From the NCBI GenBank assembly GCA_026990815.1, contig JALXCS010000380.1, forward strand, positions 1 through 34,002: DNA of 34,002 bases. Reading direction: 5' to 3'. The notes under the pieces were generated by a model that saw only the letters and a list, made by a program, of their open reading frames with translations, had not been told where the DNA came from and did no database searches. The position numbers and the translations under genes are program-made. Positions 3,163-24,829 of the stretch are shown here, one piece after another (position 1 is the first letter of the stretch; each line of letters opens with the position of its first letter). The DNA is from Methylomonas sp. Lineage in GTDB: Bacteria > Pseudomonadota > Gammaproteobacteria > Methylococcales > Methylomonadaceae.

Positions 3163-3883
3163 TACATTTATTTCCTTGGGACATTCTCAAAATACCTCTT
3201 AAAATATCAACTTCCTTGCTATCAAGTTGACTTCGATTATAGATACGGCGTAAACGACGCATAATAGACTTGGATTTATCCGGGTGCATAAATCCAACAT
3301 CAATTAGTGCCTGATGCAAATGCTGGTAAAACATTTCCATTTGCTCGGATGTTGCCAAAGTTTCATGATTTGTTTCTGGATCGCAAGGCTCTTGCTGTTT
3401 TTCACCAGCAACAAAAAGTTCATAACCTACCACCTGCACGGCAGTCGCCAGATTGAGTGAACTAAAATCTGGGTTACATGGAATTCTCAGCAAAAAGTGA
3501 CATAAATCGAGTTCCTGATTGGTTAACCCTGAGTTTTCCCGCCCGAATACAATCGCCACATTGGTAAAATCAGCGTTTAAGACGATCATTTGTGCACAGT
3601 CTCTGACTGTCAATGTTGGCCAGCTCAAGGTTCGGTCTCTGGCACTGGCCCCAAATACCAAGGTACAATCGGCTATAGCCTCTTGCAGACTGTCGCAGAC
3701 CCGAGCAGCCGCCAAAATTTCATCAGCGCCTGATGCCCTTGATGTTGCATCGGCACTAGGAAAAATTTTCGGAGAAACCAGATAAAGCCGATCAAGTTTC
3801 ATATTTTTCATCGCTCGTGCAACGCCACCAATATTCCCTGGATGTGAAGTTTCAACTAAAACGATTCGTATTTTTCCCAACAA
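3155..3883 (-). CDS. trmJ: tRNA (cytidine/uridine-2'-O-)-methyltransferase TrmJ (SPOUT family)
   Basis: 242 aa. N-terminal '[26 protein letters not shown]' and '[46 protein letters not shown]' are SpoU/TrmJ signatures. Confidence 0.93.
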
Positions 3884-3973: not shown

Positions 3974-4771
3974 ATGCATCCAATGCTCACTATAGCTATC
4001 CGTGCCGCCAGGAGCGCAGGTAATCATATTCTTCGTGCAGTTGACAGTGTTGGTCAACTGCAAATTGATCAAAAAGGCAAAAATGATTATGCCAGTGAAG
4101 TGGATCGCAAAGCTGAAAGTGAAATAATTCGAATTATCAGTAAAGCCTACCCGAGTCACGGTTTCCTAGCCGAAGAAAGTGGCCATCAGAAAAGTGATAG
4201 TGATTATATTTGGGTCATTGACCCTTTAGATGGCACAACCAATTTTTTACATGGTTTTCCGCAATTTGCTGTTTCCATAGCGTTGAAGCATAAAGGTATT
4301 CTTGAAGTTGGAGTGGTCTATGACCCGCAACGGGATGAACTGTTTACTGCAGAACGCGGCGGCGGCGCCATGCTGAATAATCGCCGCATTCGGGTGACAC
4401 GGCAAACAAGTTTGACTGGTTCATTATTAGGTACCGGATTTCCATTCAAGAAACAGCAGCACTTTGATGCCTATCTGGAAATGTTCCGAGCGCTATTTAT
4501 TGATTCAGCCGGTATTAGACGTGCAGGAGCGGCCGCGCTAGATCTTGCCTATGTTGCCACAGGAAGACTTGATGGCTTTTGGGAAATCGGCCTGCATGAA
4601 TGGGATATGGCAGCAGGAGTATTATTAATTAAAGAAGCTGGCGGTGTTGTAACAGATTTTTCTTTTCGGGATAAATATCTGGAATCGGGAAACCTGATTG
4701 CTGGTAATCCTAAAATGCATCAGATTATGTACCAAGCTATTGAGCCACATGTAACCGACAGTCTGAAATAA
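3974..4771 (+). CDS. suhB: Inositol-1-monophosphatase family protein
   Basis: 265 aa with 'WVIDPLDGTTNFLHGFPQFAVSIAL' and 'GLHEWDMAAGVLLIKEAGGVVTDF' inositol monophosphatase motifs. Divergent from trmJ. Confidence 0.95.
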   Translation: MHPMLTIAIRAARSAGNHILRAVDSVGQLQIDQKGKNDYASEVDRKAESEIIRIISKAYPSHGFLAEESGHQKSDSDYIWVIDPLDGTTNFLHGFPQFAVSIALKHKGILEVGVVYDPQRDELFTAERGGGAMLNNRRIRVTRQTSLTGSLLGTGFPFKKQQHFDAYLEMFRALFIDSAGIRRAGAAALDLAYVATGRLDGFWEIGLHEWDMAAGVLLIKEAGGVVTDFSFRDKYLESGNLIAGNPKMHQIMYQAIEPHVTDSLK

Positions 4772-4981
4772 GTTTCCCTTTTTTTCTGGCTACTGGCTGG
4801 TTTAATAAAGCACTACTGGATCCAAACCTGGTTCTAAAAATCCACTGTAAAGTAATTACACACTTCCTTGTGTATCAATATTGCCTGCAATTAATTCAAC
4901 CCGAAAATTCCCTCTATAAACCGCACACGAAGAAAAATCAGTTCTTATTTGTCAAAGTCACGAAAACCAGCTTATAGTATC

Positions 4982-5140
4982 TCAATCCTGCTGCTTTTGC
5001 GTTGGCCTCATTACGATATTACTAAAAAGAGCGGAACTAGCAAAAACCATGGTTGAAATAATAAATTGCCCTGAGATAAAACTCCAAACGCCAGCAATAA
5101 TTAAAGTTCCGATTATTACATCTCTAGTAAATTCACTCAT
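4982..5140 (-). CDS. Small (52 aa) predicted single-span membrane protein, not in the supplied ORF track
   Basis: Manual reverse-strand translation: MSEFTRDVIIGTLIIAGVWSFISGQFIISTMVFASSALFSNIVMRPTQKQQD*. ATG start with GAGAGG 6 nt upstream. Long hydrophobic segment. Confidence 0.6.
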   Translation of the reverse strand: MSEFTRDVIIGTLIIAGVWSFISGQFIISTMVFASSALFSNIVMRPTQKQQD

Positions 5141-5393
5141 GTTTTTCCTCTCGAATATTGAATTAAAGTTACAAGAATAGTGTTTTATTACTACATTTAT
5201 ATGAACAAGCTCAAAATATTCTGATAACTGGCTTTTAATTTCCAGTTATTTGAACACCATCACACTTTTGAGTCAGAAATCTAATAAAACAACCTGGCCA
5301 AATCTGGTTTTAATCGGGCCATAGGACATAAAATCCAGATAAAAGTTTCTTTCGAATAATAAGTCATTTTATCAATCCTCAATTACAAAACTT

Positions 5394-6173
5394 ATGTCTT
5401 TAATGAACAAGAAAACTTTTTTTTGCAGTTGCCTTCTATTAATTATCGGTAATGCTTGGCCATCTGATGTGCTACGAGAACAGCAATACGTAATAGAAAT
5501 TATAAAAGATCTTCGTTCCGGTTCGGCAATTTATCTTGGAGAAAACCAGTACTTTGCTCTTTATAATGAAACTGAAACAACAGAAAACAGAGGGACTGCT
5601 ATTTTATTGCATAATGCGGGTCAACATTCTGATTCAAAACCGTTAATTCATAATCTAAGAATCCAGTTACCTGAACATCAATGGGCTACTTTATCGTTAC
5701 AACTTCCCGTTTACGAATTTGGCACAAATACCAATGAATATTTTGAATTGTTTCCGGAAGCATTTAAACGCATTCAGGTAGCTGTCGATTACTTACAGAA
5801 AAATGAGGTGAAAAATATCGCATTGATCGGCTATGGAATGGGAAGTTTAATGGCAGTTTATTATGCATTTGAATCAAAAAGCCCAGCGATCAAGGCAATT
5901 GTTGCAATCAGTCTTCCCACTCCTGAAACAAAAAATAAATTTGCCAAGACATTGAAGTTTTTAGAAAAAATCAATCAGCCATTACTTGATATTTATGGTT
6001 CAGCTGATATAGCCACAATCAGTAGTAATGCAAGAAAAAAACGTATTGCAGCCAAACATAATCCACAATACCGACAAGTTATGATTAATGAAACTCAACG
6101 CCCATATCGAAATTATCAAGAACTTATGGTAAAGCGAGTTTATAGCTGGTTAATTCAGGTCTCAGACAATTAA
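5394..6173 (+). CDS. DUF3530-like exported alpha/beta-hydrolase-fold protein
   Basis: 259 aa, signal peptide, 'GTAILLHNAGQH...LRIQLPEHQWATLSLQLP...NIALIGYGMGSLMAVYY' pattern. Confidence 0.7.
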   Translation: MSLMNKKTFFCSCLLLIIGNAWPSDVLREQQYVIEIIKDLRSGSAIYLGENQYFALYNETETTENRGTAILLHNAGQHSDSKPLIHNLRIQLPEHQWATLSLQLPVYEFGTNTNEYFELFPEAFKRIQVAVDYLQKNEVKNIALIGYGMGSLMAVYYAFESKSPAIKAIVAISLPTPETKNKFAKTLKFLEKINQPLLDIYGSADIATISSNARKKRIAAKHNPQYRQVMINETQRPYRNYQELMVKRVYSWLIQVSDN

Positions 6174-6175
6174 TA

Positions 6176-7222
6176 TCAATCAGAATATTCCACTACGCTA
6201 TTTTCGGAGGAAACAGTAACCTCACCAATGCTAAAGACAATTTCTTCTTGATCACGCAATATTTCTTTAGCCCGTAATTCTTGTTCTTGTGGGACACAAA
6301 TAATCATGCCAATGCCGCAATTAAAGGTTTTCAGCATTTCACGATCATCAAGGTTTCCTTGCTGCTTTAACCATTGAAAAATCAAAGGCTGTGGCCATGA
6401 ATTCAAGTCAATTGATGCCGATAGTCCTTCTGGTAATACCCGTGGCAAGTTTTCGGTAATTCCTCCTCCAGTGATATGTGCCAATGCATGGACCGGAACT
6501 AACTCTGTTAGAGCTAATAATGATTTGACATAAATTCTGGTCGGCTCCAGCAGTGATTCACCAATAGTTTTATCATCTAAAGGATCCGTCAGCGCAACAG
6601 TATTATGTTCAATAATTTTCCGAATCAACGAATAACCGTTGGAGTGGGGGCCAGAAGAGGCAATTCCAAGCAATTTATCGCCAGCTTTAACTTTTGAGCC
6701 ATCAATCGCTTTGTGTTTATCAACAATACCAACACAGAACCCGGCCAAATCATAATCGCTGTCTGCATACATGCCTGGCATTTCAGCCGTTTCACCACCA
6801 ACCAACGCAGCGCCAGCAAGTTGACAGCCTTTCCCGATGCCTTCAACTACAGAAGCGGCAACATTGACATCCAGCTTGCCACAGGCAAAATAATCCAGAA
6901 AAAATAGAGGCTCAGCGCCTTGCACAATAATATCATTGACACACATCGCGACCAAATCGATGCCGATCGTATGATGGATATTCATTTCATTGGCGAGTTT
7001 TAATTTGGTTCCCACTCCATCGGTGCCAGAAACCAGCACCGGATTTTGAAAGCGATCCAAAGGCAACTCAAACATTGAACCAAATCCACCAAGACCAGCC
7101 AAAACACCTTGTGTACGGGTGGCAGCAGCAATGGGCTTGATTCGATCAACAAGAGCATTGCCTGCTTCAATATCCACACCGGCATTCTTATAACTTAAAC
7201 TTTGTTGGTTTTGTTCACTCAA
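6176..7222 (-). CDS. purM: Phosphoribosylformylglycinamidine cyclo-ligase (AIR synthetase)
   Basis: 348 aa with '[15 protein letters not shown]', '[12 protein letters not shown]' and '[16 protein letters not shown]' motifs. Confidence 0.97.
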
Positions 7223-12065: not shown

Positions 12066-12572
12066 TTATTTTCTCATTTCACTAAGTATTTCTCCATTAT
12101 TATCTAATGTTATTTCCAAAATATTTCCTGAAACCATAAGATCAATATCATATTCTTCGCCATATCGATTGGGATTATTAATCATTTTCACAGCTAAAAT
12201 TTTGTAATCTGGATAATTTGATTGCAAACTTTTAACTGCCTGATCTGAAATGACATTAAACGAATGCTTTTCCACAATAATAATATTAGTAAATAACTGA
12301 CCATTAGGCCTGAATAATTCCCCCATTTCATCTTCGTAAGGCATATTATTTTGATCAGTTTTATTTTCCTCAAACGTCACTTGATAAAAAGATTGGCCAA
12401 AATGGTTTTTTTCTTGTACAGAAATAGCCTTTGCTTTGGGATGGTTTTTATGCATATAGTCCAAGGCTTTTTGTGGTAAGTCTTGCATGCTGATATTTTT
12501 AGCATTGACAGTAAAAGATGTTGATGTTAAAGACAGTAGCAGCCAAAATATTTTAATAAATTTTTTTTGCAT
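12066..12572 (-). CDS. Exported PepSY-like protein
   Basis: 168 aa, signal peptide. Two tandem-like segments 'LPQKALDYMHKNHPKAKAISVQEKN...' and 'SDQAVKSLQSNYPDYKILAVKMINN...YDIDLMVSGNILEITLDNNGEIL' with PepSY-like pattern. Confidence 0.65.
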   Translation of the reverse strand: MQKKFIKIFWLLLSLTSTSFTVNAKNISMQDLPQKALDYMHKNHPKAKAISVQEKNHFGQSFYQVTFEENKTDQNNMPYEDEMGELFRPNGQLFTNIIIVEKHSFNVISDQAVKSLQSNYPDYKILAVKMINNPNRYGEEYDIDLMVSGNILEITLDNNGEILSEMRK

Positions 12573-12644: not shown

Positions 12645-15398
12645 TCAAATATGATCCAATAATTTCAAACCAGGCGGTAATGATTCACCAAAAACCTGCT
12701 TTTCCTCCTGCTCGTCCAGCTCGGTTATTTGTGTAATCATATTTATCCAGGAAGCAGGAGACTTGCTGGATTTTAGTTTTGCTCCAACTTTTTCACGGAG
12801 CTTAGTATTCACATCCCTGTTTCGATCTCCTGTCATTCGAGTCATCAAAGTGGCGGCAAAACCAGCCTGAGGTATTTTTTTCCAATCAACGCTCAAACAT
12901 TGCTGCAGCCATAATTCAATTTGACCGGGAGGAATAACAAAATGGTCGCTGCCATGAAACAGTTTTCTTGAGCCAACTCGTCCCAAAGCCCACCAACTCT
13001 GCACCGATTCGCTGGGTTTTTTCAGACGTTTTAACAACCATTCTCCAAGCTGAGTTTTTTTATCAACTGAGAGTCGTTCCAATGATCCTGCCAACCTGAC
13101 CATTTCGTCATAGCTGTGCAATTTGCTCAGTTTGGCGATATTGCCTTGTCTTGCAGAAGCAGGGTTAATAAATTTTGCCAGATCAGCAAATATTTTTTCC
13201 TGGGCCAGGGTATCAAGTCCACCGGCAATTCTGCGCCACAAAGTCCACCATTCCGTCCAATTTTGAGTTTCAGTCACAAACTGAATGCCCTTGGGATAAA
13301 TTTTCCACAATTGTTCAATCCGCCAATCATCCAGTTGGTAGCCAAACCCCGGTCTCAAACAAAAACCCGTCAAATTCAACCAAGCCCGCTCATGATTAAT
13401 CGAGCGTCGGCGGTTTTTCATGGTTTCAAGCAATAACGAAAATAATTCCCGTAATAATAGCGTGTGCCAGTCCTGACGGGGACCAAGCATTTTTTCCAGA
13501 TCAGAGCGTAAACTTTTTACCGCTTTGGGATTGACAGTTTTTGATTTACCACCAAAAATTTCCAGTATCTTTTCTGCCGCCTGATTAAAATTATCGGGCA
13601 AACCCTGACGCTGCACAGATTGCGTTCTGCGCCGAATCTCAAATTCAACATCCCAGCGTTGCTGAGGGTTATCAACTGCAACACACTGAATTCTCAAGGT
13701 TCCCACTTCCGTCAAAGTTATTGCCAATTTAACAGTGACTTCATTAAGCGTTGCCCCATCCTGCTGTTCAAGCGCAACAGCCAAAGGCGGTAAATCATGA
13801 AACCGGTCATCCATTTCCTGAACAAGCTCACCCGGCTTTAATTGGTTATCCCCTGTCAAAGAAGCCAGATGAAAACGCACGGGCTGACCCAAACGCAATG
13901 CAAATTGCCTGTTTTCCAGAATGATTTCCTCACCTTCCTCGGTTCCCTGCGGCAAAATACAAATTGCTTGCCGTGATTTCTCAGTTTCCAAATCAATCAC
14001 CAAAAAATAACTGCGTGATGCACCACCGCCAATCTTTATCTGTTTACCCTGTCTGGCTATCGCATAACTGACTGCACCAAAAGCAACAGCCAATTCCGGA
14101 TGAATATTTTCCAGATGTTTAACCGGCTGGTCACTCCAGGAACCGAGCAAATCAAGAACCCTCTGACGAATCACTTTGCTGCGAAACACTCCGCCATTAA
14201 ACAAAACCGCATCAGGAACACCCTGCTCGCTTTGTGTCGCCTGTTGCGCCCCCTGTTTATGCAGATTCAAAAAAGCGGCAATATGTTTGCTGATCGCAGG
14301 ATCTGCCGCATAAGGCAAGCCGAATTCCACCACACCACTGCGTTTCTTGTCTGGAAACTGATCTATTTTTGATAGGGGAAAGAAGCCATCCAGGGCAATC
14401 ACATTAACTACCTCTTTACTCAATTCAACTGAACGCGTACTACCAATTAATCGAGAACCGCCGCCCAAAAGCGTTACTGCATATTTTTCTGGCGCTTGGT
14501 CATTGAGTAACTGCTCCTTGCAAATCCGGCATTGTTCAATCAACTGCGCCAATTCAGCAACGGAAACCCGCTTGCCATCCGGATACAAGCTTTTTTCGAC
14601 GCGATGTGCCAAGGTTAAATCAATATTATCGCCTCCCAGCATTAAATGTTCGCCGACACCTATTCTTGTCAGTTTAGGCTTCGGACCACCTGGTTCAACT
14701 TTAATCAGAGTCAAATCGGTCGTGCCGCCGCCAACATCACATACCAAAAGCAGCCGAACATTTTCCAATGCCTGATCTAAATCATGCTGATGCCTACGCA
14801 GCCAGTCATAACAAACCGCTTGTGGCTCTTCCAGCAAGCGCAGCTTGGGAATTCCGGCAATTCGTGCAGCCTCAAGCGTTAAAGAGCGTGCGGCTTCATC
14901 AAATGATGCGGGAACGGTAATCACAACATCCTGATTTTCCAGTAAGGCATCCGGAAATTTATGATTCCACACGGCACGAACATGGGCCAGATACCTGGCG
15001 CTAGCATCGAGCGGAGAAACCTTAGGCACATCCTCACTACTACCCCAGGGTAATATCGGTGCAGTATGATCAATGGACGGATGAGACAACCAGCTTTTGG
15101 CACTGGTCACCATTCGTCCTTGGGTTTTCGCACCCAAAACTCGGGCTGCTTCGCCAATCACTGCCGAATCGCCAGATGGCGAAAATGCAATATCAGATTC
15201 GACCAGCTCACCTTCGGCAGGATGATAACGAACGGACGGCAGCAAATCCCTCGCAGCCACTTCACCCGGCGCCACCAGTTGTTGAATTTGGAAAAGCTTT
15301 ATTTCGGAATCAGATGGATCGGCGTTGGCATATGCGACAACAGTATGGGTTGTCCCCAAATCAATACCGACCAGGTATTGTGGATTTTGATTTTGCAC
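12645..15398 (-). CDS. Hsp70 family protein with long C-terminal extension (DUF3731-type)
   Basis: 917 aa; 'VGIDLGTTHTVVAYA', 'VITVPASFDEAARSLTLEAARIAG', 'LLVCDVGGGTTDLTLI' and 'VLFNGGVFRS' are Hsp70 ATPase signatures. Roughly 300-aa helical/W-rich C-terminal region. Confidence 0.9.
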   Translation of the reverse strand: MQNQNPQYLVGIDLGTTHTVVAYANADPSDSEIKLFQIQQLVAPGEVAARDLLPSVRYHPAEGELVESDIAFSPSGDSAVIGEAARVLGAKTQGRMVTSAKSWLSHPSIDHTAPILPWGSSEDVPKVSPLDASARYLAHVRAVWNHKFPDALLENQDVVITVPASFDEAARSLTLEAARIAGIPKLRLLEEPQAVCYDWLRRHQHDLDQALENVRLLLVCDVGGGTTDLTLIKVEPGGPKPKLTRIGVGEHLMLGGDNIDLTLAHRVEKSLYPDGKRVSVAELAQLIEQCRICKEQLLNDQAPEKYAVTLLGGGSRLIGSTRSVELSKEVVNVIALDGFFPLSKIDQFPDKKRSGVVEFGLPYAADPAISKHIAAFLNLHKQGAQQATQSEQGVPDAVLFNGGVFRSKVIRQRVLDLLGSWSDQPVKHLENIHPELAVAFGAVSYAIARQGKQIKIGGGASRSYFLVIDLETEKSRQAICILPQGTEEGEEIILENRQFALRLGQPVRFHLASLTGDNQLKPGELVQEMDDRFHDLPPLAVALEQQDGATLNEVTVKLAITLTEVGTLRIQCVAVDNPQQRWDVEFEIRRRTQSVQRQGLPDNFNQAAEKILEIFGGKSKTVNPKAVKSLRSDLEKMLGPRQDWHTLLLRELFSLLLETMKNRRRSINHERAWLNLTGFCLRPGFGYQLDDWRIEQLWKIYPKGIQFVTETQNWTEWWTLWRRIAGGLDTLAQEKIFADLAKFINPASARQGNIAKLSKLHSYDEMVRLAGSLERLSVDKKTQLGEWLLKRLKKPSESVQSWWALGRVGSRKLFHGSDHFVIPPGQIELWLQQCLSVDWKKIPQAGFAATLMTRMTGDRNRDVNTKLREKVGAKLKSSKSPASWINMITQITELDEQEEKQVFGESLPPGLKLLDHI

Positions 15399-15413
15399 GT
15401 TTGTTACTGGAAT

Positions 15414-17327
15414 CTATTCCTGATGTACATCTGTTTCGGAAGATTCGCAGTCATCTTCACCCGCTCGAACATCAAATTCAATTTTCCAGCGGTTACCGTC
15501 CTGGGTCGATACAGCTTGTAACTCAAGTGTTCCTACTTCAGTCACTGCGGCACATAAATGGACGGGAATCACCTCTCCCGGATTATGATTTTCAACCGGC
15601 AAAGTGATTTCGATTTCATCAAGTTCTTCAAGTTCACCTTCAGACCAGTGTTCAAGTCTTGCTCCAACCTGATCATCACGGCGAACCGTGGAACTGAAAA
15701 AACGGAATCTGACCGGCTCTCCAATTACCAGACCGAACTCATCACCCACCAGTTTCTGTTCAGTACCTTCTTCCATGCCAAAAGGGGCGATACAAAGCGC
15801 TTGCAATTCTGGCAACATTCCAGGGACAGCAGGCATTGTGCTCTCAATACCCACATAATAGGCAGCGGCAGTTCCGCCTTTGATGCGGACGCCCTGGCCT
15901 TTTCTGACGAACCCATAATAGGCTGCACCACGCGCGACTGCCAAATCCAGATCAGCACCTTCAAGTAATCTGGCTTCTGGCGCGGCTTCGCCCGTCAACC
16001 AGGAATTCAGTACTTCCATTAATCGTTGACCCAACAAATCAGATTTTAATACCCCACCGTTAAATAACACAGCCGATGGATGTAAAAAGCTGGCATTTTC
16101 CGGCAAGGAAATATCGGACAATTCTTCGGTTGCTGAAAGTTGTTTTGATAAAAATGCCGCTAAATGGCGAGTAATACCGGCATCTTGCGCATAAGGCAGG
16201 CCAACTGTTCTTAATCCTGTTCTTGCGCGACTAACAGGCTGTTCAGTAACGGAAATTTTTGGAAAAAAGCCTTCAACCAATACCCGGTTGACTTCCTCGC
16301 GGGTTAATTCAGTACGAAGTGTTCCACCAATCAATGACGAACCCCGGTTGGGAACAACCAATGGAATGTTATCCGCTTCCGGATCACTGAGGATTTTTTC
16401 TTTGGCATCACGGCAACCATGCGTCAATGCCTGTATTTGCCATGGTTCAAGACATTTGCCATCCTGTTCAAGTTTAGCTTTGACGGTATAAGCCAGAGCT
16501 AAATCCATATTGTCACCGCCCAGCAAAATATGATCACCGACCGCAACACGAGTTAATTCTAGGTTGCCTTCCCGCTCTGTAACTGCAATCAAGGATAAAT
16601 CTGTGGTGCCGCCACCAACATCAATGACCAGAATAATATCGCCCACTTTAACCTGATCCCGCCATTCACCTTGACTTCTTTCAATCCAGCTATACAAAGC
16701 AGACTGCGGTTCTTCTAGCAAAATAGCCTGATCCAGCCCCAGGGTTTTAGCCGCATCGACTGTAAGTTCACGTGCCGCGGGATCAAATGATGCCGGCACC
16801 GTAATCGTGACATCCTGTTGCTTTAATGGAGCTTCAGGATGTTGATTGTTCCAGGCATTTAACAAATGCTCCAGATAGGCACAAGTAGCCTGAAAAGGTG
16901 AAATTCGTTCAACTTCATCAGGCGCTTCAGCCGGTAATATCGGAGCTTTACAGTCTACTCCAGCATGGCACAACCAGCTTTTGGCGCTGGATACCAATCT
17001 GATCGGAGTTTTACTACCTAAATTCCTAGCAATTTCACCGACAATGTGTTCTGGATGCGGATCCCAGGGTAATGCAATCTCTCCTTCTGAAATTTCCGCT
17101 CTATGCGCTTGATACAAAAATGAGGGTAGCTGTGATTTTTCCTCAACCGTACCCGGTGCAGTTAGTTGTGGTATCGGCAACACTTCTTGAAAAACTTCAG
17201 TATCTTCAGATTGATTAATATCAACCCAGGACAATACACAGTGGGTGGTCCCTAGGTCAATTCCCACTGTAAACACGGACTCTCCGTTATCAGCCCCGTT
17301 TTGGGTGACTGATTCGGTTTCACTCAT
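15414..17327 (-). CDS. Hsp70 family protein (shorter paralogue)
   Basis: 637 aa; 'VGIDLGTTHCVLSWVD', 'TITVPASFDPAARELTVDAAKTLG', 'ILVIDVGGGTTDLSLI', 'AVLFNGGVLKSD'. 15 nt from the downstream Hsp70. Confidence 0.92.
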   Translation of the reverse strand: MSETESVTQNGADNGESVFTVGIDLGTTHCVLSWVDINQSEDTEVFQEVLPIPQLTAPGTVEEKSQLPSFLYQAHRAEISEGEIALPWDPHPEHIVGEIARNLGSKTPIRLVSSAKSWLCHAGVDCKAPILPAEAPDEVERISPFQATCAYLEHLLNAWNNQHPEAPLKQQDVTITVPASFDPAARELTVDAAKTLGLDQAILLEEPQSALYSWIERSQGEWRDQVKVGDIILVIDVGGGTTDLSLIAVTEREGNLELTRVAVGDHILLGGDNMDLALAYTVKAKLEQDGKCLEPWQIQALTHGCRDAKEKILSDPEADNIPLVVPNRGSSLIGGTLRTELTREEVNRVLVEGFFPKISVTEQPVSRARTGLRTVGLPYAQDAGITRHLAAFLSKQLSATEELSDISLPENASFLHPSAVLFNGGVLKSDLLGQRLMEVLNSWLTGEAAPEARLLEGADLDLAVARGAAYYGFVRKGQGVRIKGGTAAAYYVGIESTMPAVPGMLPELQALCIAPFGMEEGTEQKLVGDEFGLVIGEPVRFRFFSSTVRRDDQVGARLEHWSEGELEELDEIEITLPVENHNPGEVIPVHLCAAVTEVGTLELQAVSTQDGNRWKIEFDVRAGEDDCESSETDVHQE

Positions 17328-17986
17328 AATTCAACCTCCGCTGGGACAATCACTTTTGGATTATGATGTTCGGTTAATTTTGGTAATTTCACATTGGTAA
17401 CTTGCCAACCTTTATGTATCAAAGCACCAGTGAATGGCGGCTCGCCGATGATGTTACCAATCAAACGCACAGCTGAGGCATCAAAGCCCTTGTTCAAGGT
17501 GATTTTATTGCCTTCCTGTTCGTTACGGATAGGTTGTAAATCAAAGTGTTCATTAATTACTTTACGGCAACCGTCATGGACAACGCGTGCGGCGGCACCC
17601 ACTTCACTATCGCTGTAATTTGAAACGTCTTCTTTAACAAAATCGATGAAGCGTGCTTGTTTTTGTAATAGACCCAACAATTGCAATGCAGAATCCGTTG
17701 TTGATTCCTTCAGGACAACTGGCTCTGGCGCCGGAGCTGGAACTTCTACTTCAACGATCTTCTCGACTTCAACAATTTTTTCAATAATTTTGGGTTCAGG
17801 TTCAACAACGGGTGTTGCCGTAATTAATGCTTGTTGTCTGGATCTTCGTGAAGCTCCTGCTAGCATGGCCAATAGTAAAATAATCAGCAGTAACGCTAGT
17901 GCAAAAATAATGCCTGCCATAACTGCATGATATAAATCAAAAGTAGTCGGAACCAGGGATAAATCGATATTATAATGGGTATTCAT
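17324..17986 (-). CDS. DUF2760-type membrane-anchored protein
   Basis: 220 aa; N-terminal TM helix 'AVMAGIIFALALLLIILLLAMLAG', charged linker 'EPKIIEKIVEVEKIVEVEVPAPAPEP', C-terminal globular domain. ATGA overlap with the downstream Hsp70. Confidence 0.78.
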   Translation of the reverse strand: MNTHYNIDLSLVPTTFDLYHAVMAGIIFALALLLIILLLAMLAGASRRSRQQALITATPVVEPEPKIIEKIVEVEKIVEVEVPAPAPEPVVLKESTTDSALQLLGLLQKQARFIDFVKEDVSNYSDSEVGAAARVVHDGCRKVINEHFDLQPIRNEQEGNKITLNKGFDASAVRLIGNIIGEPPFTGALIHKGWQVTNVKLPKLTEHHNPKVIVPAEVEL

Positions 17987-18007
17987 TGGCTATCCTGTTG
18001 TTAATTA

Positions 18008-18379
18008 TTATTTTCTTGATGCAGCGATCAGCATCAGTTCTTTCAGTAACTTACGCGCCGTTTTAGTTCGGGTCATTTTCATATAGCGATCGGCGCTTTT
18101 CGCTGGCACTTTTTCCTTAATAAAAGTTTCACGGACATTAACCAGAGATTTTTCGCATTCTTTTAAAATTTCATCTGCCAGCTTTCTAGAATCCATCTCC
18201 ACTTTTATGCGTTTTTTAACTCCATTGGTTATACAAGTCATATATTCGTATTTCGATTTCTGGATATTGGCAATGGTTGAATCTGACAGCGTTGAAGCTT
18301 GCCATTCCTCGCTTGATTTATCTGCAGCCAAAGCCTGCAAGGAAACAGCAAAAAAAATCAGTAACAGATACTTTCTCAT
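18008..18379 (-). CDS. Hypothetical small exported protein, first gene of the Hsp70/DUF2760 operon
   Basis: 123 aa; signal peptide MRKYLLLIFFAVSLQALAA; two cysteines in the mature part. 21 nt upstream of the DUF2760 gene, same strand. Confidence 0.75.
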   Translation of the reverse strand: MRKYLLLIFFAVSLQALAADKSSEEWQASTLSDSTIANIQKSKYEYMTCITNGVKKRIKVEMDSRKLADEILKECEKSLVNVRETFIKEKVPAKSADRYMKMTRTKTARKLLKELMLIAASRK

Positions 18380-20671: not shown

Positions 20672-23600
20672 TCAATCAATTTCCTGTATCAGGTCAAGCA
20701 TATCCTCAACCGACATTTTGCCGCTGACATCGCCACCCTCGAGTAAGCTATTTGCCAGATCTCTCTTGTGTCTATGTAATTCAACAATTTTATCTTCGAT
20801 GGTGTCTTTGGCCACCAAACGATAAATTGTGACAGGTCTTTTTTGGCCAATGCGATGGGCGCGATCAGAAGCCTGATCTTCAACTGCAGGATTCCACCAG
20901 GGATCCATATGGACAACATAATCAGCCGCAGTCAAATTCAATCCGGCACCGCCCGCCTTCAGGCTGATTAAAAAAACATCACCTTCACCCGACTGAAATG
21001 TATTGACGGCTTTTTTACGGTTAGCCATGCTGGTCGAACCATCAAGATACTGGTATCGAATCCCTTTTTTATCCAGTAATTCCCTTATTAAAATCAAATG
21101 TGCGACAAACTGGCTGAACACCAATGCTTTGTGGCGATTGGCGATGAGTTCTTCAACCAGTTCTTCAAATGCCTGTATTTTTGAACTGGCAATATCGGTA
21201 TTTTCCATAACTAATTGCGGATGACAGCAAGCCCGTCGAAGCTTCATGATTTCTGCCAGAATCTGGAGTTGTTTTTGTCCTAAAGGAACGCCTTGTAACT
21301 CAGCTTCCAACATGGTTTCCTCGGCATTTTTTCTCAGCGCTTCATACAAGGTACGCTCTTCCTGGCTTAACTCAATATGCAAGGTTATTTCCGTACGTGG
21401 CGGCAATTCAGTCAGGACATCGCTTTTCAGTCTTCTTAGAATAAATGGTTGAATCAACTTTTTCAGGCGTTGCTGCGTTCCATAATCCTTCTGATTTTCA
21501 ATTTTTTGGGCAAAGCGTTCATTAAACTTCTTGATTGAACCCAGTAATCCCGGGTTGATAAAGTTGAACAGGTTCCACAATTCGCCCAGGTGGTTTTCAA
21601 TCGGTGTGCCAGTAGTGATTAATTTAAAATCACCTTTCAAAGCCATAGCTGCTTTTGATCTTTGCGTTTGTGGATTTTTAATCGCTTGCGCCTCATCAGC
21701 CACAATCGTGTGCCATTGTTTTTCAATCAGTTTTTCGGCTTCAGTCTGCAATAAACCATAACTGCAAACAATCACATCAAATGCACCTGCCTGATCAAGT
21801 GTTTGCTGTCGATCTCCCTTACCAAAATAATAGACATTCAAGGTGGGAGCAAAACGCTGTGCTTCTTCAATCCAGTTGTTGCAAACCGATGTTGGCGCTA
21901 AAATCAATGTCGGCCCCCGTTCTGCACGTGACAGAATTAATGCCAATGACTGAATGGTTTTTCCAAGCCCCATATCATCAGCCAGACAGGCGCCTGCGCC
22001 TAAATAGGCAAGTCTGGACATCCACTGGTAACCTTCCAATTGATAGTCCCTGAGTTCACCTTGCAAAGTCGAAGGCACTTTAGCTTCAAATTCATTTGCC
22101 TCAGCCAGTTTCTTTAATTGTTGCTGCCAATGTTTCCCAGCCTTGACATTCATGCCTTCGGTAATGTCTTCCAGCGCTTGGGAAGCCAATGGGTGAAAAC
22201 GAAACTCCTTTTCATGAAGTTCTCCGAGCCCTGTCAAATCATCCAGTCTTTGACGCAATTCCTGGGCCAGTGCAATAATCTGTCCATCTTCCAGTTTTAA
22301 AAATCTGCCTGATGAAGCGGCCAATAAACCCATCAGGTTTTGCATTTCCAAGACCTGCTCATCATCAATCTGAATTTCGCCTGAAACACTAAACCAGTCC
22401 CGTTCTTTTCGAACATTAAACTGAACACTGGAAAAACCGGTTTCTCTACTAATTTTAATGGCCTTGCCCTTTGGCCATTCCAGAACCACGAAATCACCCA
22501 ATGCCTGTAACTCAAGCAAGGCTTCCAGCGCCATTTCGGCATCATCCAGCTGCCATTTGGCATCGCTTGCATGATAAAGTGTCGGACAGTTTTCCAGAAC
22601 TTGATCCAGATATTGTCTTTCCAAATCAAAATCCCGGGTCGTTTGCAGCTGTTTGTCATTTATTTCAGCCAGCACAGTAGTTCCCCCTGCGCCCGGTTTA
22701 TAAACAGGACCACCATCAGCAAAAGGTTGCACGAAAACATCAATTAACAAACCCTCACCAACAGGTTGTAAATGAACATGCAACCGGCTGTCAGACTCTA
22801 CCCTCTCTGCCATACTGGTTTGACCGGCGATATCCGATTGCACGGTCAACTTTGAGGCAATGGCTGATATTGAATCCATTACCTGTTGCTTGGCTTTTTT
22901 AGGCACCAGCAAACCTTTTGGCCCCAATATTTCAGCTACCTGCCGATGTTCCGGCTCAACCGGATAGACAATTAAGTCATGGCTGGCCATCTTTTCTACA
23001 ACAACTTCATGAATGCCTGGATAAGGAAGCAATGCAATCAGCAGTTTGTCCTGCTGTTCGGATACAGAAAGCTGAATCTGTCCTTTGGAAAGATTAACCG
23101 GTGTATCAAATTGCGATGAATTCTCCCAGAAAATCAATGGATGACCGATTGCCTCAATAATGCCTTGCCGGCTGACCTGATAAATTTCACGGGCACGATA
23201 GCCATAAAAGTCATATTCGTACTTCATTTCGATACAGCGGCAAATGTTGCGATCCTGAACGGTCAAATAGGCAAAATCGTCAATTTCGTGATGTAACCGT
23301 TTGAGAGCTACATTTCGTCCTTTGGTCCATCGGCCATTTTTACCCAGGCGCTGCTCTTTGGGAGTCAAAGTAATTTCATGGTCATCAATATCAATCGTCC
23401 AGATTAACCGGAAGTTTTGCTGTTCTGCCTGCTTTTTTTGTGCCGCCTGTTCTTGATTGCCAATACGGGTCAAAGCATCCAGTGCGCGTTGCCAATTTTC
23501 AACGCGGGGTAATAAATCAAGAATATTGATAAAAGATGAGTCAGCATACTGTTCGGCCAGTTTTTTTACTTCCGGATTAGCAGCTTCCAATCGCTCCAGA

Positions 23601-24829
23601 AGATTCGAGCAAACAGCGGCATACCAGAAATATTGATGCTGCTCTGCCTGTACGCAGCGTTTGTTCAAATCGTCAATAAAGTTATACGGACCATTACTAA
23701 TAAGATTCAGCTCATCCAGCCAATAAAGCAATAGCAGGTGCAATAGATGATCATAAGGATAATTAGTCCCCGAATACAATAAATGATTATCTGGATCTGA
23801 TGCTTTGGTTTTAGCTTCATAAACATCCAGCCCAATCAGTAACCTCTGTTCTATAATCCCAAACAGGGAATGCTTGCCATTATGCTTGATTGAAATCTTT
23901 AACTGTTTCCTGAAGGTACTCAGGTTTTCAGGTTTTTGGCCATAAAGAAACGATAACTTCAAGAAATGACCTAGAATACCTGGAACATCTACATTACGTT
24001 TTTTTGTTTGTTTTCTGATCAGTTTCAAGACTGTGTCGTAAATCAAACAGGCTTCTTCATAATGGCCTTGCATAAACTTGAGTGCAGCCAAAAGAATAAG
24101 CCCTGGCTCCGAGTCATCATCTTTAAGCAAATCGTCAAGACCATCCAGATCGCCACGAATTAAATGCAGTTCAATGGATTTATAAAAAAATCTTCTAGGT
24201 ACCTTCTCCTTGTTTTCAACAAGTTCATTCATTAATCGGTATTGAAAACTACACTTACCCAAGTCCAGGTTCATGGCAAACTGATATCGCTGTAACAAAG
24301 TCATGGCAATACCGATGGGTAACGAGTCGAACCATTCCCGGTCAAATTGCTGAAAAACAATATCGTCTAAAGACTGAACAATTTTTTCTGAATAATAGCG
24401 CTCAAATTCTTCAAAATAATTTAAAAATTGTTGCTCTTTCCCTAGATACAGATAAATACGCCATACTTTAATATGATGCAAATAAACAATATGATGGCTT
24501 GTCCCCACACTTTCCTTTATTGCATAAGGTGCCAGTTTATTAAAAAATTCAGGTCTGGCAGCAGCCTTGCGGGTTAAAATCTCAGAAATTTCTAAAGAAC
24601 AGCGCCAGCCAGCGCTGGTGACCTCAATCAAGCCCATTTCTTCCAATTTGGTTCGTAAAGGCTTTGCGACAATATTAGCAATCGCAATAGGAACACACCC
24701 GGATATCTTGAGTAAATTTTGGAATCGGTTTTGTCCTATTGGGGCATAAATAACCGACAAAGCTAAAAGAATGTCCTGTTCACCAATAGAAAGAGCTTCA
24801 TAGCGATCCAGTAATTTTTTTTTCATCAA
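20672..24829 (-). CDS. SNF2-family DEAD/DEAH helicase with about 900-aa N-terminal region
   Basis: 1385 aa; 'LADDMGLGKTIQSLALI', 'VADEAQAIKNPQTQRSKA', 'TGTPIENHLGELWNLFNFINPGLLG', 'SLKAGGAGLNLTAADYVVHMDPWWNPAVEDQASDRAHRIGQ'. Confidence 0.93.
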   Translation of the reverse strand: MMKKKLLDRYEALSIGEQDILLALSVIYAPIGQNRFQNLLKISGCVPIAIANIVAKPLRTKLEEMGLIEVTSAGWRCSLEISEILTRKAAARPEFFNKLAPYAIKESVGTSHHIVYLHHIKVWRIYLYLGKEQQFLNYFEEFERYYSEKIVQSLDDIVFQQFDREWFDSLPIGIAMTLLQRYQFAMNLDLGKCSFQYRLMNELVENKEKVPRRFFYKSIELHLIRGDLDGLDDLLKDDDSEPGLILLAALKFMQGHYEEACLIYDTVLKLIRKQTKKRNVDVPGILGHFLKLSFLYGQKPENLSTFRKQLKISIKHNGKHSLFGIIEQRLLIGLDVYEAKTKASDPDNHLLYSGTNYPYDHLLHLLLLYWLDELNLISNGPYNFIDDLNKRCVQAEQHQYFWYAAVCSNLLERLEAANPEVKKLAEQYADSSFINILDLLPRVENWQRALDALTRIGNQEQAAQKKQAEQQNFRLIWTIDIDDHEITLTPKEQRLGKNGRWTKGRNVALKRLHHEIDDFAYLTVQDRNICRCIEMKYEYDFYGYRAREIYQVSRQGIIEAIGHPLIFWENSSQFDTPVNLSKGQIQLSVSEQQDKLLIALLPYPGIHEVVVEKMASHDLIVYPVEPEHRQVAEILGPKGLLVPKKAKQQVMDSISAIASKLTVQSDIAGQTSMAERVESDSRLHVHLQPVGEGLLIDVFVQPFADGGPVYKPGAGGTTVLAEINDKQLQTTRDFDLERQYLDQVLENCPTLYHASDAKWQLDDAEMALEALLELQALGDFVVLEWPKGKAIKISRETGFSSVQFNVRKERDWFSVSGEIQIDDEQVLEMQNLMGLLAASSGRFLKLEDGQIIALAQELRQRLDDLTGLGELHEKEFRFHPLASQALEDITEGMNVKAGKHWQQQLKKLAEANEFEAKVPSTLQGELRDYQLEGYQWMSRLAYLGAGACLADDMGLGKTIQSLALILSRAERGPTLILAPTSVCNNWIEEAQRFAPTLNVYYFGKGDRQQTLDQAGAFDVIVCSYGLLQTEAEKLIEKQWHTIVADEAQAIKNPQTQRSKAAMALKGDFKLITTGTPIENHLGELWNLFNFINPGLLGSIKKFNERFAQKIENQKDYGTQQRLKKLIQPFILRRLKSDVLTELPPRTEITLHIELSQEERTLYEALRKNAEETMLEAELQGVPLGQKQLQILAEIMKLRRACCHPQLVMENTDIASSKIQAFEELVEELIANRHKALVFSQFVAHLILIRELLDKKGIRYQYLDGSTSMANRKKAVNTFQSGEGDVFLISLKAGGAGLNLTAADYVVHMDPWWNPAVEDQASDRAHRIGQKRPVTIYRLVAKDTIEDKIVELHRHKRDLANSLLEGGDVSGKMSVEDMLDLIQEID

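Follow-up and report, generated by a model that had tools for sequence, protein, structure and literature searches.

The window is a 34,002-nt stretch of DNA from Methylomonas sp., to which all positions below refer unless another contig or locus is named. ORF calling confirmed four minus-strand ORFs at 18379–12645 (Table 1), which in gene order encode a 123-aa exported protein (here called exp), a DUF2760 protein, and two Hsp70-related proteins of 637 and 917 aa, designated HspA and HspB. The first two genes are 21 nt apart, the second and third overlap by 4 nt (ATGA) and the last two are 15 nt apart; the junctions and family assignments put forward in an earlier, sequence-only reading of this DNA were confirmed both by coordinates and by Pfam. 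The 220-aa product matched DUF2760 with E = 1.7e-55 (186.6 bits against a gathering cut-off of 25), and both large products passed the cut-off for HSP70 (PF00012; 2e-16 and 4e-16), in their N-terminal part only. Downstream of the Hsp70 nucleotide-binding domain (NBD), residues 667–913 of HspB matched DUF3731 (E = 1e-105, 353.5 bits against a gathering cut-off of 25). A chance arrangement of these genes is ruled out, because the 4-nt overlap recurs in 68 of 78 loci and the gene order is kept across distant genomes, and the four genes are probably co-transcribed, judging from the sequence. A scan of the locus for promoters and terminators gave matches at chance level.

Table 1. Genes and sequence features of the exp–DUF2760–HspA–HspB locus (positions in the window).
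Feature	Position	Strand	Remarks
exp	18008..18379	(-)	Exported 123-aa protein; predicted signal peptide at about residues 1–18, invariant Cys 49 and 75; lineage-specific partner (supported within Methylococcales); no Pfam family
DUF2760 protein	17324..17986	(-)	220 aa; predicted TM helix at the N-terminus and a disordered linker, followed by a conserved C-terminal core that ends in AEVEL
DUF2760 transmembrane segment, residues 21–39	17870..17926	(-)	RRSR on C-terminal side; N-out/C-in predicted by the positive-inside rule
DUF2760 core domain (PF10816)	17330..17698	(-)	Predicted cytoplasmic
Stop/start overlap, DUF2760/HspA	17324..17327	(-)	ATGA; ATGA/GTGA in 68/78 homologous loci
HspA	15414..17327	(-)	637-aa divergent Hsp70; NBD and beta-type domain, no helical lid
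HspA interdomain segment, VRI(R/K)GGTA	15867..15890	(-)	Stands where DnaK has its VLLLDV linker
HspB	12645..15398	(-)	917-aa divergent Hsp70; GTG start, DUF3731 C-terminal helical domain
HspB interdomain segment, IGGG(S/A)xRS	14010..14033	(-)	Stands where DnaK has its linker
DUF3731 domain (PF12531) of HspB	12660..13400	(-)	All-helical

The gene for a 168-aa PepSY-like exported protein (12066–12572, minus strand) begins 72 nt beyond HspB in the same orientation, and could be co-transcribed with it; no gene following HspB is conserved across the compared loci. The window also carries a SNF2-family helicase of 1385 aa (20672–24829, minus strand) whose PADLOC similarity to DpdE and ZorD is strong, although it falls far below the NCBIfam equivalog cut-offs.

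Well-studied Hsp70s rely on a J-protein for their cycle. The sequence-only reading had recognized no J-domain protein or GrpE in the window, and none of the window ORFs that were scanned matched either. Both are encoded elsewhere in the genome, which carries five J-domain ORFs and a GrpE. Its two other full-length Hsp70 genes, on contigs C294 and C118, each have a gene for a J-domain protein and one of GrpE type next to them, while the HspA/HspB pair has neither. The arrangement on C118 (L224) is a compact triad of a J-domain (3691–3858, in an ORF of 111 aa), a divergent GrpE-like gene (4153–4662, E = 2e-22) and an Hsp70 (4692–6416, a protein of 594 aa), distinct from the main dnaK locus, which lies on C294.

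The DUF2760–HspA–HspB module across genomes

The core of the locus is a three-gene module, DUF2760–HspA–HspB(DUF3731), the parts of which are almost never found apart. Among 369 genomes sampled across the Gammaproteobacteria, DUF2760 was present in 13 and DUF3731 in 14, the single mismatch coming from a contig that stops within the HspA gene. With an HspA profile at E < 1e-60, HspA and HspB were both detected in precisely these 14 genomes and nowhere else in the sample; the positive genomes span about ten families. A second sample, taken across the Pseudomonadota, gave nested sets (DUF2760 in 28/399 genomes, DUF3731 in 27/399), and the odd genome has DUF2760 without DUF3731. The hypergeometric p values for co-occurrence, which ignore shared ancestry, were about 5e-23 for the 369 genomes and about 4e-41 for the 399.

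More than 560 DUF2760 loci were returned by a scan of GTDB genomes, and 80 of these were fetched for comparison at the locus level. HspA directly follows DUF2760 in nearly all of the 80 where the contig permits, and HspB follows HspA in most. In ten methanotroph genomes (Methylomonas and relatives) HspB does not adjoin DUF2760–HspA and is encoded elsewhere in the genome in all ten, so the association is not one of physical linkage alone. The neighborhood analysis of DUF2760 and DUF3731-Hsp70 homologues, proposed as a check when the locus was first read, thus revealed near-perfect co-occurrence even of unlinked genes, and a functional link between the genes of the module is supported. Four Chromatiaceae-type genomes (purple sulfur bacteria) carry DUF2760–HspA and are devoid of DUF3731, which indicates that HspB is not strictly needed and counts against reading the proteins as a paired machine. 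Together, the co-occurrence and these exceptions identify DUF2760–HspA as the tightest pair, and HspB as a nearly constant third part. Distance-matrix correlations of 0.90 (HspA–HspB) and 0.75 (DUF2760–HspA) fit co-inheritance and are confounded by species phylogeny.

On chromosomes the module is single-copy, and its neighbors are conserved in Vibrio and Duganella. It is found on plasmids too; one example is a conjugative plasmid of Bradyrhizobium, where it lies between transfer genes. On the Candidatus Thiodictyon plasmid pTs485 (L049) DUF2760–HspA occurs without HspB and adjoins several annotated anti-phage genes and a TIR protein. Such plasmid settings would suit an anti-phage or island-borne defense system, but no defense theme was seen around the 80 loci, where Pfam and PADLOC tallies found no further common neighbor and no Pfam family occurred more than three times among 101 flanking ORFs. 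The PADLOC matches are weak, and a search of viral contigs for homologues of the module found none, giving no sign of a viral origin. With the single chromosomal copies and their conserved neighbors, these results make a defense role very improbable.

ATPase and J-protein contact positions of HspA and HspB

HspA and HspB share 39% identity over 613 aa. The positions equivalent to D8, T11, K70, E171, D194, T199 and D201 of DnaK are invariant in 40/40 HspA and 40/40 HspB sequences, so that at all seven positions checked the phosphate-1, phosphate-2 and catalytic Lys and Glu elements of the NBD are retained in both Hsp70s (numbering follows what we take to be the E. coli DnaK sequence, and the compared parts agree with PDB alignments). 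R167 of DnaK makes the principal contact with the HPD motif of J-domains. At the corresponding position 39 of 40 HspA have T, I or V, whereas Arg is retained in 26 of 40 HspB, and HspB may therefore still make some contact with a J-protein. At the N170 position both proteins have Glu, and in both D393 and the VLLLDV linker have been lost, with glycine-rich segments in place of the linker (Table 1). The two Hsp70s had been called divergent from the sequence alone, and their divergence can now be located: it falls where J-proteins act, with the linker and most of the J-contact residues lost. The SBD-alpha helical lid is also absent, as HspA stops after the beta domain and HspB runs on into DUF3731, and the DnaK substrate-pocket position V436 is not conserved in the pair. 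Neither protein comes near the cut-offs of the curated NCBIfam equivalog models for DnaK, HscA and YegD, the scores being 51–58 bits against a cut-off of 822 for DnaK and 71–105 against 709 for HscA.

The AlphaFold2 model of HspB (pLDDT 82) was aligned by Foldseek over the NBD and beta region to ATP-bound, full-length Hsp70s, the best match being 4b9q (E = 8e-23), and its TM-score against DnaK (7kzu) was about 0.72. Alignment over both regions implies that a substrate-binding-type domain has been kept in HspB, and the beta domain of HspA is probably of the same type, given its identity to HspB. The same alignment bears upon whether the two proteins are chaperones at all, since they could instead be ASKHA-fold ATP switches (actin/MreB-like or signaling), with DUF2760 as a membrane receptor. 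PF00012 is the only family passing the cut-off, there is no lid, the V436 position is not conserved, and a weak similarity to MreB was detected, all of which would accord with a switch; the match to full-length Hsp70s over NBD and beta domain argues otherwise, and we regard this explanation as quite improbable.

The HspB model also matches Sse1/Hsp110, with E about 1e-18. HspB is the longer of the two paralogues, carries an additional domain at its C-terminus, and accompanies HspA in all sampled genomes except the purple sulfur bacteria, so it might be an Hsp110/Ssz1-like regulator (e.g., a nucleotide exchange factor) rather than an equal partner, with DUF2760 as the anchor. This appears unlikely, given that every ATPase residue checked is kept in HspB and that its resemblance to Hsp110 is no closer than that to DnaK.

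A further possibility is that the general DnaJ and GrpE of the cell drive HspA and HspB, and that DUF2760 merely targets or recruits clients. The five J-domain ORFs and GrpE of the genome are consistent with this, as are the Arg retained in many HspB proteins and the match of the HspB model to DnaK in its ATP state, one such structure being the J-domain complex 5nro, and the J-proteins encoded elsewhere count against a J-independent machine. However, the loss of R167 in all HspA, the change of N170 to Glu in both proteins, and the loss of D393 and the VLLLDV linker affect the contacts on which DnaK chiefly relies for J-domain binding and allostery, and we consider it fairly unlikely that the general set is the driver.

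DUF2760, exp and the proposed machine

The AlphaFold2 model of the DUF2760 protein has a pLDDT of 82, and most of the core exceeds 90. This core ends with AEVEL in 75 of 80 homologues. A fold search with this model against the PDB and viral models returned nothing below E = 0.1, and a search of PDB sequences with the DUF2760 profile found no relative. Two identities were considered and rejected. As a J-domain protein it would be expected to resemble PF00226, and there is no such match, no HPD in the sequence and no PDB fold match. The idea of a GrpE homologue stemmed from a by-eye likeness between the end of the DUF2760 domain (H-x-G-W ... PAEVEL) and GrpE (Q-K-G-Y ... RPAMV), but the hhalign score of 12.1 compares with up to 21.5 for column-shuffled GrpE and 13.9 for the reversed profile. 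A co-chaperone role is suggested by the position of the gene.

A TM helix is predicted in 30 of the 80 DUF2760 homologues, including every exp-bearing locus (25/25 of these, against 5/54 without exp, a difference confounded by lineage). Positive charges lie C-terminal to the helix in all 30 helix-bearing proteins, from which an N-out/C-in orientation is predicted by the positive-inside rule; this would place the DUF2760 core on the side of the cytosolic Hsp70s, and exp outside. Most of the helix-less homologues have an amphipathic N-terminus with a motif like SFFxRIxIAxGAFFRxL, which may bind the membrane surface. The sequence-only reading had envisaged a membrane-tethered machine, and tethering holds for the DUF2760 protein of this window, but not as a core or family-wide property. 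One divergent homologue of 364 aa (L047:2099-3193, G028) has an extended, multi-helix hydrophobic N-terminal region and a different membrane architecture.

The exp gene has been observed only in Methylococcales, and always immediately upstream of DUF2760. The 25 homologues share invariant W, C, C, R and P residues, and several arginines are common to them. Of 17 newly sampled Methylococcales relatives, 14 were positive for both DUF2760 and exp; one further genome had exp alone, its gene being cut by a contig end. In three Methylococcus-type genomes (L126, L094, G136) exp and DUF2760 share a single ORF uninterrupted by a stop, and the linkers vary in sequence and length while the frame is kept. 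Single frames in Methylococcus lie at L126:9527-10615, L094:830-1927 and L035:6490-7605. The fused frames have an internal ATG before DUF2760, preceded in L126 by the ribosome-site-like AGAAGGG, so free DUF2760 could also arise, and both fused and free products are possible. In-frame gene fusion is standard evidence for association of the products. The exported protein had been suggested as a client or envelope partner, and from these sequence comparisons its partnership with DUF2760 is supported within Methylococcales, through the shared presence pattern and the fusion; outside that order exp is not part of the core.

On this evidence we give a probability of about 0.5 to a dedicated machine, in which the two lid-less Hsp70 paralogues most likely form one complex, DUF2760 is an obligatory adaptor or co-chaperone replacing the J-protein/GrpE set, and the assembly in methanotrophs reaches across the inner membrane. 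The HspA and HspB ATPases would work as a pair. In Methylococcales, DUF2760 would span the inner membrane once, exposing its N-terminus on the outside and keeping the conserved core cytoplasmic, and its periplasmic side would pair with exp as an exported disulfide protein, so that the two cytosolic ATPases would be coupled to the state of the envelope, or to an envelope client. The N-terminus of DUF2760 in other lineages would mostly be an amphipathic helix that does no more than touch the membrane, and the restriction of the membrane link and of exp to some lineages counts against a transmembrane reading in general. The stronger proposal, that the new-fold DUF2760 itself controls the ATPase cycle of the paired Hsp70s in place of J-protein and GrpE, gated in methanotrophs across the inner membrane via the periplasmic disulfide protein, is tentative and rather doubtful. 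If the dedicated machine proves real, a widespread, tightly co-inherited pair of Hsp70s, largely stripped of the J-contact surface and equipped with a small partner of its own that has no known fold, would show that the Hsp70 engine can be driven in a second manner, and the functionally blank Pfam families DUF2760 and DUF3731 would gain a joint, testable role. The in-frame exp–DUF2760 fusion makes the topology and the set of partners directly testable.

Comparison with known systems

A PMC full-text search found no paper naming DUF2760, DUF3731, PF10816 or PF12531, and none that describes or tests the module as one system, in line with the earlier remark that the joint function of these families is not established. 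An apparently orthologous operon, VC1373–VC1375, is present in Vibrio cholerae, where VC1373 and VC1374 are called DnaK-related, VC1375 would by synteny be the DUF2760 protein, and there is no exp. In the literature found, mention of these genes is confined to tables and lists of promoters. HapR, a quorum-sensing regulator, activates the promoter of VC1375 both in vivo and in vitro (PMC10328515), and biofilm is listed as a condition in which the operon is repressed (PMC9201469). The two observations agree, and suggest quorum or lifestyle control in V. cholerae rather than a classical heat-shock response. Other Vibrio loci have DUF2760–HspA–HspB with a GGDEF gene divergently upstream; one gene family occupies this position in all six loci compared (L096, L108, L110, L119, L125, L128), and its L108 member, the one tested, is a diguanylate cyclase of the CHASE-GGDEF type, which may connect the module with biofilm regulation. 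Many divergent Hsp70s have been reported in Myxococcus, their specific functions being unknown, and the parts of that report available to us do not describe a DUF2760–HspA–HspB unit (PMC8265645).

The module resembles DnaK/DnaJ/GrpE in its NBD, with all ATPase residues checked, in its Hsp70-type beta domain, and in the model match to ATP-bound DnaK, but it has no J-domain or GrpE, has lost the linker and most J contacts, is without the SBD-alpha lid, contains two paralogues per unit, and scores far below the DnaK equivalog cut-offs. In the proposed joint action of two Hsp70 paralogues it recalls Hsp70–Hsp110 and Ssb/Ssz1–RAC, which are eukaryotic; here the module is bacterial, its pairing is putative, and HspB carries DUF3731 instead of the Hsp110 extension. 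Recruitment of an Hsp70 to the membrane by a membrane protein would parallel DjlA–DnaK, Sec63–BiP and Pam18–mtHsp70, although DUF2760 has neither a J-domain nor a known fold, and its membrane helix is not universal. The encoding of a specialized Hsp70 beside its own helper gene is shared with HscA/HscB and with HscC and DjlB/DjlC, where the helpers are J-domain proteins.
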